In this document: positions 40,526 through 45,477 of the stretch, piece after piece
How the letters are laid out: every line of letters starts with the position of its first letter
Numbering within the stretch: the stretch's first letter is position 1
NCBI RefSeq assembly: GCF_024137025.1
Contig: NZ_JAMYJR010000039.1
Coordinates: 124,001 to 188,000, forward strand
Origin: Paractinoplanes aksuensis
GTDB lineage: Bacteria > Actinomycetota > Actinomycetes > Mycobacteriales > Micromonosporaceae
Direction: 5' to 3'
DNA: 64,000 bases
Made by a program: the position numbers and the translations under genes
The notes under the pieces: model-generated
What the model was told of the DNA's origin: nothing
Databases searched by the model: none
What the model saw: the letters and a program-made list of their open reading frames with translations, nothing else

Positions 40526-40557
40526 CGAGGCCGTTCCGCCGATGCGGAACGGCCTCG
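40526..40557 (+). terminator. Terminator of the sugar ABC operon
   Basis: A 14-bp perfect stem: CGAGGCCGTTCCGC (40526-40539) with its complement (40544-40557), loop CGAT, followed by TCGTTT. Confidence 0.85.
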
Positions 40558-40626: not shown

Positions 40627-40632
40627 TATGCT
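40627..40632 (+). promoter_or_regulatory. -10 element TATGCT of the helical-repeat gene
   Basis: TATGCT followed by 7 bases and GTG 40640; no ribosome-binding site. Confidence 0.5.
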
Positions 40633-40639
40633 CCCCGCC

Positions 40640-41584
40640 GTGAATGGGTCAGATAACGTCCTTCTGGATCCCGCGGACGCTTATCCGGAGATAGCCGCCG
40701 TGCGCGCGCGGCTGACCGCGAAGGACTGGACCGGTGTCCGCGCCGTGGTCGACAACCTGTCGCCGTCGGCGCGCACCAAGATCGTCCGGCACGGCGGATC
40801 GGCCGACGGGTCCGAGCAGGTGTTGCGCGAGGTGCTCGACCGCGATCCGGCCGACGGGACGGCCGCGGCCATGCTCGGTCACTGCCTCATCGACATCGGC
40901 TGGAAAGCCCGGTCGTCCTACGGCGCCGAGCACGTGAGCCGGGACCAGTTCAAGGAGTTCCACGCCTGGCTGCGCCAGGCCGAGGCGGTGCTGATCGACG
41001 GGGCCGCCCGCAACCCCCGCGATCCGGCGATCTGGGCCGCCCGCCTGGTGTCGGCCCGCGGCCTCGAGCTGGGCCTGGCCGAGGCCCGGCGCCGCTACGA
41101 CCGGGTCAAGGCGCTCGACCCGCACAACTTGACGGCCCAGTTCCAGATGCTGCAGCAGCTCTGTCCCAAGTGGGGCGGAAGCTGGGAGTTGCTGCATCCC
41201 TGGGCCCGCGCGGAGATGCTGGCGGCGCCGCCCGGCGCCGCGCAGGGCGTGCTGGTCGCCGAGGCCCATATCGAGCACTGGCTCGAGTTGCCGGCCGGCA
41301 CCCGGACGGCGTACCTCAACGGAGCTTCCGTCCGCCGCGAACTCCAGGAGGCGGCCGACAGGTCGGTGCTGCACCCGGACTTCGGCCGCGACAACGGCTG
41401 GGTCGAGGCCACCAGCGCCTTCGCCTTCGTCTTCAGCCTGCTCAACGACCGCCGGTCGGCGGCCCGGCTCTTCGTTCTCTTGGGCGAGCTGGCCACCGAA
41501 TACCCCTGGCAGTACCTCGGCGGCGACACCGCCGAGCAGATTCGCAACCACCGCCGGCGCGCACTGGCCGGAGCGGCCCGATGA
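40640..41584 (+). CDS. TPR/helical-repeat-like hypothetical protein
   Basis: About 314 residues of alpha-helical sequence with TPR-like pairs (EVLDRDPADGTAAAMLGHCLIDIGW, RYDRVKALDPHNLTAQFQMLQQL) and a conserved-looking WGGSWELLHPWAR segment. It resembles DUF4034-type hypothetical proteins, but I cannot be sure. No signal or membrane segment is visible, so it is probably cytoplasmic. The frame opens at ATG 40628, but that ATG lies within a TATGCT -10 element; GTG 40640 is the likely leaderless start. Its stop overlaps the start of the M16-like protease by 4 bases, implying joint function. Confidence 0.75.
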   Translation: MNGSDNVLLDPADAYPEIAAVRARLTAKDWTGVRAVVDNLSPSARTKIVRHGGSADGSEQVLREVLDRDPADGTAAAMLGHCLIDIGWKARSSYGAEHVSRDQFKEFHAWLRQAEAVLIDGAARNPRDPAIWAARLVSARGLELGLAEARRRYDRVKALDPHNLTAQFQMLQQLCPKWGGSWELLHPWARAEMLAAPPGAAQGVLVAEAHIEHWLELPAGTRTAYLNGASVRRELQEAADRSVLHPDFGRDNGWVEATSAFAFVFSLLNDRRSAARLFVLLGELATEYPWQYLGGDTAEQIRNHRRRALAGAAR

Positions 41585-43251
41585 TCAAGCAGATCGAGAT
41601 CGACGGGGTGCCGGCCCTGCTGGCCCCGGCGGCCGGAGCAGGGCATGCCGGCCTGGCCTTCCGGGTCGGATTCGCCGACGAGCCGCTGGCCCGGCGCGGC
41701 ATCACCCACCTGATCGAGCATCTGGCCCTCTTCTCCACGGGAGTGGCCGACTACCACTACAACGGCGCCACCGGGGTCGAGTACACGTTCTTCCACATGC
41801 ACGGTTCGGCCGACGAACTCGGCGAGTTCCTCACGGCGGTCTGCACCTCGCTGCGCGGCCTGCCGATGCACCGGCTCGCCGTCGAGAAGGACCTGCTGCG
41901 GGCCGAGGCGAACGGGCGCAGCTCCGGCCCGGCCGACCCGATGGGGCTGTGGCGGCACGGAGCGCGGGACTACGGCCTGCCCAGCTATCCCGAGTGGGGC
42001 CTGCCCGCGATCACCGAGGACGACCTGCGGGACTGGGTGCAGCGCTACTTCACGCGGGAGAACGCCGTGCTGTGGGTCGCCGGTGACGAAGTGCCGGCCG
42101 GCCTGCGACTGGACCTGCCGACCGGCGTACGCCGGAAGCCGCCGGCGATGTCGTCGGCGCTGCCCGTCACCCCGGCCTGGTTCCCGGGCGGATCAGGAGT
42201 GCTGGTCTGGGACGCCCTGGTGCCCCGGGCGCCCCGCTCGGCCGTCTTCGCCGGGGTGCTCGAGCGGGTGATGTTCCGCGAGCTGCGCCAGGAGGGCGGT
42301 CTGTCGTATGCCGCCCATGCTGCCTACGAGCCGGTCGGCGTGGACCACGCGCAGGTGACCGCTGTCGCCGATGCCCTGCCCGACAAGCAGGGGGCCGTGC
42401 TCGGCGGTTTTGTCGACGTGCTCGCCGGGCTGCGGGTGGGCCGGATCGACGAGGCCGACGTGGCCGCCGTGGTCAAGAAGCAGACCGAGGCGCTGCGGCA
42501 CGCCGACGAGCAGGGCGCGCGGCTGCCCGGCCAGGCGCTCAACCTGCTCTGCGGACGCGAGGTGCTCGAGGCGGACGAGGTGATCGACGGACTGCGTGCG
42601 GTCACTGCGGCCGAAATCGCTCAGGTGGCGGCCGAGGCGTGGGAGGCCGGGCTGTTGATGACCCCGCACACCCGGGCCGACTGGGCCGGCTTCACGGCCG
42701 CGCCCACCCACTCCGAGACTGCCGTGGCCGGTACGAGCTACCGCTCGCGGGACACGCCCGACGAGAAGCTGATCGTCGGGGCCGAGGGCGTCAGCATCGT
42801 CTCGGACACCAACCGTGTGACCGTGCGCTTCGACGACTGCGTCATCATGCGGGCCTGGCCCGACGGCGGTCGTCACCTGGTCGGCGCGGACGGGATCGTG
42901 GTCTTTGTCGAGCCCACTCTGTACAAGGGGGCCCGGGACGCGGTCGAGCGGCTGGACGCCTCGATCCCGGCCGCGGTCCGGGTCGAGCAGCCCGCCCGCG
43001 ACCCCGGCCAGATCCCGCAGCCGGTGCAGCCGGTGCCGGGTACCGCGCCGTCGGCGTCGCCGCGACCGTGGCGCAGGGTGATCGTCCTCGCTCTGGTGGC
43101 TTCGGCCGGGTTGGCCATGACCAGCCGGATCGGCTACGAGCTGGCCCACGACCTGGTCGACGTCCAGACCGGCCTGGTCGGTCTGGCCGCGACGCTGGCC
43201 GTCACCGTGCTGTGCGGGGCCGGCGCCGTCCGCGCCCTCCGCACGCGCTGA
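41581..43251 (+). CDS. M16-like metallopeptidase with PH-like domain and C-terminal membrane anchor
   Basis: About 556 residues. The N-terminal 210 residues match an M16 protease half: the inverted zinc motif HLIEH (His43, Glu46, His47) and a downstream glutamate in LLRAEAN (about 109). The segment between motif and glutamate is shorter than in pitrilysin. A second M16-like half lacking the zinc motif covers about 210-370 (FRELRQEGGLSYAAHAAYEP is the typical substrate-binding region). Residues 385-450 look like a bacterial PH-like domain. Two transmembrane helices close the protein (VIVLALVASAGLAM and LVGLAATLAVTVLC). The active site is predicted to face the cytoplasm. ATG at 41581 overlaps the preceding stop. 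Confidence 0.8.
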   Translation: MIKQIEIDGVPALLAPAAGAGHAGLAFRVGFADEPLARRGITHLIEHLALFSTGVADYHYNGATGVEYTFFHMHGSADELGEFLTAVCTSLRGLPMHRLAVEKDLLRAEANGRSSGPADPMGLWRHGARDYGLPSYPEWGLPAITEDDLRDWVQRYFTRENAVLWVAGDEVPAGLRLDLPTGVRRKPPAMSSALPVTPAWFPGGSGVLVWDALVPRAPRSAVFAGVLERVMFRELRQEGGLSYAAHAAYEPVGVDHAQVTAVADALPDKQGAVLGGFVDVLAGLRVGRIDEADVAAVVKKQTEALRHADEQGARLPGQALNLLCGREVLEADEVIDGLRAVTAAEIAQVAAEAWEAGLLMTPHTRADWAGFTAAPTHSETAVAGTSYRSRDTPDEKLIVGAEGVSIVSDTNRVTVRFDDCVIMRAWPDGGRHLVGADGIVVFVEPTLYKGARDAVERLDASIPAAVRVEQPARDPGQIPQPVQPVPGTAPSASPRPWRRVIVLALVASAGLAMTSRIGYELAHDLVDVQTGLVGLAATLAVTVLCGAGAVRALRTR

Positions 43252-45087: not shown

Positions 45088-45477
45088 TCAGGCCGCAGGC
45101 GCCTGTCGTTGTGCCGGCACCGCTGACTTGTGGGGCCGGCCCAGCCGGGCCTCGAGCCGGGCAAGGTCGACACGTCCGTGATGACGGTCGGCGGTGTCCT
45201 CCCAACCGACGGCGAGCAGCCGCAGCCGCTCTGCCTCGGTGAGGCCACCCCAGACTCCGTACGGCTCTCGAACCGCCAGGGCGTGGGCGGCGCACTCGGC
45301 CCGTACCGGGCACGCGCCGCACATGCTCTTGGCTTTGGCCTCGCGGCGGTTGCGGGACGACCCGCGCTCGCCGTCCGGGTGGAAGAACTGCGCACTGTCC
45401 CGTCCTCGGCACAAACCGAGCCGTTGCCAGTCCCAAAGATCGGCGATGGGCCCGGGCAGTCTGCGAACGTTCGACAT
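45088..45477 (-). CDS. whiD: WhiB-family iron-sulfur regulator, WhiD/WhiB3 type
   Basis: A 129-residue Wbl protein. Four cysteines (C23, then CGACPVRAEC as CxxC and C further on) bind a 4Fe-4S cluster sensitive to oxygen or nitric oxide, followed by the family turn GVWGGLTEAE. The N-terminus RRLPGPIADLWDWQ and the FFHPDGERG stretch point to the WhiD (Streptomyces) / WhiB3 (Mycobacterium) branch, which acts through binding sigma factor. GGAGGAGGG lies 6 nt before ATG 45477. It is divergent from the bldM-like gene, and the same pair is adjacent in Streptomyces. Confidence 0.9.
   Translation of the reverse strand: MSNVRRLPGPIADLWDWQRLGLCRGRDSAQFFHPDGERGSSRNRREAKAKSMCGACPVRAECAAHALAVREPYGVWGGLTEAERLRLLAVGWEDTADRHHGRVDLARLEARLGRPHKSAVPAQRQAPAA

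Follow-up and report, generated by a model that had tools for sequence, protein, structure and literature searches.

A two-gene unit within the window, the 64,000-nucleotide stretch of DNA from the soil bacterium Paractinoplanes aksuensis analysed here, encodes a tetratricopeptide repeat (TPR) superhelix protein and, directly downstream, an M16B peptidase extended by a domain PH-like in predicted topology and by two predicted C-terminal membrane helices. The component parts are of known kinds, but their combination appears, as far as the open-access literature extends, to be without a description. The chances seem even that the pair constitutes a membrane-tethered M16B peptidase for short peptides which faces the cytosol and is served by the TPR protein as an adaptor for substrate or control. 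Sequences and models show an M16B clamshell subunit whose single chain holds zinc site and R/Y pair alike and ends in a helical hairpin; the gene of the co-evolving TPR protein lies just upstream. The peptidase would work as a homodimer, as BHP (3hdi) does, presenting a chamber at the cytosolic face of the membrane, where it might cut peptides that are short and unfolded and originate at the membrane or in its vicinity. The TPR protein would bind the peptidase, its peptides, or both, thereby selecting substrates or controlling activity.

A 2025 review attributes the difficulty of classifying prokaryotic M16B enzymes to the mostly non-physiological substrates with which they were tested (PMC12731061). 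The search for M16B function is narrowed here by a membrane anchor and by a partner that is both conserved and dedicated, and since some close relatives lack the two-gene unit it lends itself to a clean genetic test. Should the TPR protein deliver peptides, receptor and peptidase would together form a simple module.

The M16B peptidase

The downstream gene (41581..43251, forward strand) encodes 556 residues, in which Pfam recognises PF05193 at 2e-6, above its cut-off, and PF00675 at 0.048, below it. The sole NCBIfam match, YfmF_fam (E 0.32), lies far under the cut-off, and a literature search on YfmF and YfmH gave papers on EF-P, and among those listed neither name occurs. The AlphaFold2 model (pLDDT 93.9, pTM 0.84) has M16B enzymes as its top solved folds: 3hdi aligns with residues 2-370 at Z 33.8, with an rmsd of 2.6 over 361 aligned residues, and 7v4y is tied with it at Z 33.6. 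A Foldseek search of the model agrees with the M16B fold, and a profile built from 48 homologues matches 4nnz at 2.4e-14.

The zinc-binding and catalytic motif, HLIEH, occupies codons 43-47 (41707..41721, forward strand), as seen in the sequence and the homologue alignment. Glu codon 109 (41905..41907, forward strand) corresponds by alignment to E126 of 3hdi, the third zinc ligand (PMC12731061). The zinc site, comprising H43, E46, H47 and E109, is intact. In the second domain the stretch RQEGGLSY (codons 236-243; 42286..42309, forward strand) aligns with the R...Y stretch of 3hdi through R236 and Y243, a pair by which most M16 enzymes complete their active site (PMC12731061). The protein shows these sequence and fold features of M16B enzymes: HxxEH with a distal Glu, an M16 fold built of two domains and some 400 residues, and, in the second of these domains, the R/Y pair. 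The M16 HxxEH half proposed when the DNA was read from its sequence alone is borne out by these results. The second, non-catalytic half which that reading also noticed is present in the fold, but it is nothing special, since M16B enzymes ordinarily combine an active with an inactive half in a single chain. What is unusual here is the membrane anchor, along with the additional domain and the partnership with a TPR protein.

The same genome holds another five M16_C domain matches (G000 contigs C8, C10 and C89; L001-L005), which the profile of this M16 family matches only weakly, at 13.9 to 49 bits.

The predicted PH-like domain and membrane hairpin

Codons 385-461 (42733..42963, forward strand) are modelled by AlphaFold2 as seven strands and a helix. 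The order of these elements fits a PH domain, in which a C-terminal helix closes a barrel of seven strands, as far as the model goes. Sequence-library searches returned no PH match and only chance-level hits, the best being CPAP at E 0.12; the structural search rows for the 556-residue model covered the M16 part only, so that a missing PH match there is uninformative. Of the domain proposed by the sequence-only reading, the predicted strands and helix thus stand, but no sequence library recognises them, and the label 'PH-like' would denote predicted topology only.

Two C-terminal membrane helices joined by a short acidic loop span codons 496-555 (43066..43245, forward strand) on the evidence of the model and of charge analysis. 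The model places them at residues 496-522 and 528-555, in agreement with the two transmembrane helices suggested earlier. Two segments could be scored in 45 members, that of the window among them, and every one of the 45 has an inter-helix loop with less positive charge than the stretches around it; the mean net charge is +1.4 ahead of the helices, -2.1 in the loop and +3.4 behind them. This pattern of flanking charges upholds the earlier proposal of a cytoplasm-facing enzyme, and places the M16 domain, by prediction, on the cytosolic side of the membrane. At least one membrane segment is predicted in the tails of 47 of 65 core homologues and none in the other 18. In one homologue (L078:8894-10582, reverse strand) the hairpin is replaced by an acidic, Cys-rich tail with 20 Cys within the last 82 residues.

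The TPR partner

The upstream gene (40640..41584, forward strand) encodes 314 residues, identified as a TPR-superhelix protein from the open reading frame, Pfam, an AlphaFold2 model and fold searches. The model (pLDDT 95.5) is nearly all helix and its closest folds are TPR superhelices, the best at Z 15.3 with an rmsd of 5.1 over 236 residues, which confirms the TPR-like character suspected earlier. Most TPR rows in the fold search fall below Z 13, a range in which helical repeats may match by common arrangement, and the Foldseek scores are weak, with one match under E 0.001. Pfam TPR_19 scores 24.5 bits on the window protein, just under its cut-off of 25. PF13226 (DUF4034) matches three of 35 TPR homologues, at best with 9.5e-5; the window protein shares the TPR fold with DUF4034/TPR proteins but itself has no DUF4034 match in Pfam. 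The open-access literature search found no mention of DUF4034.

More distant TPR relatives occur elsewhere without the peptidase. In three loci of another family of the same class (L167, L169 and L170, family f18) a solo TPR relative lies directly upstream of an HSP90-like gene, identified in L169 by PF00183 at 1.5e-8 and judged alike in L167 and L170 by its first residues. The same three loci contain a gene for 978-1000 residues, which is TPR-containing in L169.

Gene organisation and upstream signals

The two reading frames share four bases (ATGA, 41581-41584). The GTG at 40640 is probably the true start of the TPR gene, because the ATG at 40628 falls within TATGCT (40627..40632, forward strand), a -10-like element ending seven bases 5' of the GTG, and many homologous TPR genes have a similar hexamer at about the same distance upstream of an ATG or GTG start. 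TATGCT is probably the element of a leaderless promoter. A two-hexamer promoter scan of the region of the pair found no sigma-70-type promoter. A whole-genome scan with the 22-base promoter motif returned one exact match, the TPR gene's own, and one with three mismatches, and a regulon with a common promoter motif was rejected on these grounds.

Neighbouring genes are called here ROK, oxidoreductase, LuxR, guaB, groEL and WhiB; the names were assigned on reading the sequences and are to be taken as presumptive. An intrinsic-terminator-like hairpin with a 14-pair stem and a T-rich tail lies 3' of the upstream ROK-type gene (40526..40557, forward strand). It is by far the longest among four terminator-like sites in the 3-kb region, where shuffled sequences give an expectation of 0.8, and it sets the pair apart from the ROK-type gene. 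Downstream of the oxidoreductase gene a reverse-strand gene at 45088-45477 of the window, which we take to encode a WhiB-like regulator, is also called at the same place in several related loci.

Linkage and distribution

The source genome comprises 10.0 Mb in 99 contigs, and the named relatives retrieved with the M16 protein as query were three Paractinoplanes and two Actinoplanes records. Among 100 related genomes, M16 matches of at least 300 bits, assembled by hand from M16 and TPR searches, number 72. A TPR gene lies immediately upstream on the same strand in 55 of these and is missing from that position in 17. The 72 matches fall in 46 genomes, 41 of which hold at least one linked pair. 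Frequent separation of the two genes, which the sequence-only reading had named as a result that would count against it, was not observed.

The fetched loci give a similar picture. Genes there were called by a custom script which missed some, and two core sets, which differ, are used: one of 64 members (over 580 bits) and one of 65 (over 550 bits, without L042). The M16 protein of L042 (1128 aa), whose start the caller has probably misplaced, is left out of alignments and motif counts and included in the 64. Loci L041 and L048, re-fetched copies of L037 and L040, were dropped. Alignment A2 is without L064 (48 of 49 rows), A3 without L060 and L070 (35 of 37), and A4 without 19 of 65 segments. 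In the set of 64, 51 members are linked to a TPR gene, and the four-base overlap recurs in 40 of these 51, in keeping with the translational coupling proposed for the window. The 13 unlinked members are three second M16 copies in a row, eight from a soluble clade (B1, below) and two others; one of the latter (L074) has a TPR match 29 bases upstream which the gene caller missed, and is counted as unlinked in the set of 64 and as linked among the 72.

The unit is accessory, since 16 of 60 same-genus genomes (own genome included among the 60) lack a strong M16 match; two of the 16 (G041 and G043) have shorter M16 pieces next to a TPR gene. In many genomes the pair sits in a slot between the ROK-type gene and a gene for a molybdopterin-type oxidoreductase; in others it is found outside this slot, still together. 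Tandem copies of the pair, or of the M16 gene, occur in some loci. Fourteen of the 16 genomes were inspected upstream of the oxidoreductase gene: one has the ROK gene immediately before it (122 bases), one groEL (233 bases), and nine an unrelated gene of ~203-217 residues. In L175 the pair is absent and the flanking genes adjoin each other. In L179, L180, L181, L182, L187 and L188, where the pair is likewise absent, the gene of 203-217 residues lies between groEL and the oxidoreductase gene; it had no match among the proteins fetched earlier.

Outside the genus, linked pairs occur in family f13 and, in another order of the same class, in family f18, where seven of the eight genomes with an M16 match are linked and the eighth (G573) has a partial match only. 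Of 296 genomes sampled across the class and searched at E 1e-15, 17 match the M16 protein and 34 the TPR protein. Eight of the M16-positive genomes belong neither to f18 nor to the genus of the window, and these have no TPR gene beside the M16 gene where the neighbourhood is readable. Among distant M16 relatives, those of L063 and L067 and that of L064, which is without its N-terminal part, have a degenerate HxxEH and share a common slot in another family; they have no TPR partner and retain predicted C-terminal membrane helices.

Relation to known M16B systems

The heterodimeric pairs Sph2681/Sph2682, TTHA1264/1265 and PA0371/PA0372 are soluble and have the M16B fold in common with the window protein. 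In Sph2681/2682 the zinc site and the R/Y pair lie on separate chains (PMC8960859), whereas the window protein has both in one; the split recalls some tandem paralogues of the present family. In chain organisation the window protein resembles BHP of Bacillus halodurans (BH2405, 3hdi), a homodimeric M16B peptidase (PMC12731061) with the same two-domain fold (Z 33.8) and a single chain that holds zinc site and R/Y region. By the account of the review, BHP has 413 residues, too few for the PH-like domain and hairpin of the window protein, and the spacing from HxxEH to Glu is 76 (H50-E126), compared with 62 (H47-E109) in the latter (PMC12731061). The mitochondrial processing peptidase (MPP) and the bc1 core proteins also share the fold and include active and inactive homologues (PMC11266112, PMC12731061). 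They lack the R/Y pair according to the review (PMC12731061), whereas the window protein keeps it and, unlike them, has a membrane hairpin as part of the same chain.

The class III lanthipeptide proteases Bcn-gP1/gP2 and PttP1/PttP2 are M16B peptidases of bacteria too, with genes that lie within their product clusters or apart from them (PMC8960859); in what is reported of them they are heteromeric with split motifs, whereas the window protein carries both motifs in one chain. They provide a precedent (PMC8960859; PMC10885120) for supposing that the present enzyme removes the leader from a ribosomally made natural product, a role to which we would give only a slim chance. The gaps beside the pair in the slot loci, 11-201 bases upstream and 13-175 downstream, leave little room for a precursor gene, nor was a dedicated peptide-substrate gene noticed beside it. 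Furthermore, of the 36 same-genus genomes among the 60 searched, 26 hold a strong M16 match and ten do not; a class III synthetase scores above cut-off in seven of the 26 and in seven of the ten, and the window's own genome has none above cut-off. A class III lanthipeptide link was rejected, the co-occurrence showing no positive association in these 36 genomes.

The sequence-only reading had named no described system with such an architecture, and in the open-access literature, as judged by titles and abstract openings, we found no paper on an M16-TPR pair or on this domain order. The nearest paper found (PMC13118837) names, in its text, conserved clusters of Streptomyces, those of M16 proteins lying close to gyrA and to pnp, those of TPR proteins close to rpsA and to rpoE/def; M16 and TPR stand there in separate clusters. 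In the main text of the 2025 review the words 'transmembrane', 'pleckstrin' and 'tetratricopeptide' do not occur (PMC12731061).

Divergence and co-variation

Mean pairwise identity across 20 slot loci is 55% for the M16 protein and 55% for the TPR protein (present in 19). The 12 other slot genes compared, each present in 13-20 loci, give 71-97%; genes found in fewer than 12 slot loci are excluded from this comparison. Both proteins diverge faster than these 12. Such rapid paired evolution, together with the patchy distribution and the duplications, would be explained by genetic conflict, whether in defence or in the handling of self and non-self peptides, and the adjoining of the flanking genes in at least one genome without the pair, as well as the tandem copies, are consistent with it. 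Against this, no PADLOC model matches, the M16 protein has no match in the plasmid and phage collections, and the pair often occupies a stable slot amid conserved genes; a role in conflict is in our view very unlikely. The narrower candidates of a defence system and of mobile-element cargo were rejected, the first for want of a PADLOC match and the second on the plasmid and phage result. The TPR query retrieved six plasmid records, all below 60% identity.

The distance matrices of the M16 and TPR proteins correlate across 50 pairs with r 0.70, the highest of 2000 permutations giving 0.26. With the ROK neighbour removed as a proxy for ancestry, the partial r for 30 pairs is 0.63, the highest permutation giving 0.28. 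The two proteins co-vary beyond shared ancestry. Four loci hold two pairs apiece, and there the M16 protein's own TPR protein is its best fit in six of eight cases; among all 50 pairs it is within the best three for 30.

These results bear on the suggestion that the two genes are merely neighbours with independent functions. Each gene is also found without the other, TPR relatives occurring without the peptidase and distant M16 relatives without the TPR gene, so that neither strictly needs its companion, a point which counts against joint function generally. The repeated same-strand overlap, the co-duplication, the divergence correlated beyond ancestry and the persistence of the pair outside its main slot all speak the other way, and the likelihood that the genes are mere neighbours is the slightest that we would assign to any reading.

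Paralogues and the question of catalysis

Among the 65 core members the zinc site and the R/Y pair are both present in 42, the zinc site alone in nine, the R/Y pair alone in four and neither in ten. The full H43/E46/H47/E109 set is kept in 51, including all seven of family f18. A tree from a quick search, which leaves 18 of 62 inner branches open, places 17 rows in one fully supported clade, and this divides into B1 and B2 with supports of 93 and 90. The B1 proteins (eight rows) are soluble, have no TPR gene upstream and keep the zinc site, but their R/Y pair is not intact. The B2 proteins (nine rows) all carry H43R; the TPR gene lies directly upstream in nine of nine, and membrane segments are predicted in seven of nine.

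Some copies lacking part of the catalytic set stand alone. Five genomes (G013, G021, G038, G042 and G046) have a single strong M16 copy each, from which part of the set is missing, and proteolysis may therefore not be the whole function of a unit in which the sequence-only reading saw a possible agent of membrane quality control or peptide processing. This invites the reading that the unit is mainly non-catalytic, a membrane M16 scaffold assembled with the TPR protein in the manner of alpha-MPP or the bc1 core proteins, in which catalysis is dispensable. The incomplete copies in these five genomes and the H43R shared throughout B2 favour it, as does the constraint on B2: three M16 pairs with H43R have dN/dS of 0.32-0.47, within the range of seven fully intact pairs (0.26-0.56, also the range overall), and so are not decaying freely. 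The estimates are rough, being simple Nei-Gojobori values on GC-rich genes, and they indicate continuing selection on the M16 copies, those with H43R included. A mere scaffold, however, need not keep the catalytic set, and its retention in 51 of 65 members and throughout f18 makes a mainly structural role unlikely.

A membrane-tethered peptidase with a TPR adaptor, which remains the reading we prefer, would in some lineages have undergone duplication, after which one copy lost either the R/Y pair together with its tail and partner, or the zinc site. The duplicated lineages with zinc-only or zinc-less copies suggest, from sequence comparison, heterodimers or regulatory pseudo-enzymes. In an extended form of this proposal, an anchored M16B enzyme at the cytosolic face would have its own fast co-evolving TPR receptor, and duplication in one lineage would have split the work between chains to give asymmetric clamshells, the second chain being either soluble and zinc-only or anchored and without a zinc site. 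The extended proposal, with the nature of the second chain included, is decidedly unlikely. If true, it would represent the bacterial analogue of a processing peptidase that is bound to the membrane and fed by a receptor. Within a single genus the paralogues range from active through zinc-only to dead, and they provide in any case a natural set in which to study the origin of M16 heterodimers.

Genomes with only B1, only B2 or other incomplete copies count against the heterodimer reading: B1 is the sole copy in L080, L133 and L138, B2 is the sole copy in L132, L135 and L136, and L076 and L077 have only other incomplete copies. In 11 fetched genomes, by contrast, one B copy is accompanied by one copy of the other branch (A), a pattern which fits heterodimers. 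Ten of these 11 have an A copy complete in all motifs, and at least one of the two copies is anchored in all 11. In L059 and L131 the anchor survives on the zinc-less copy and has been lost from the intact one.
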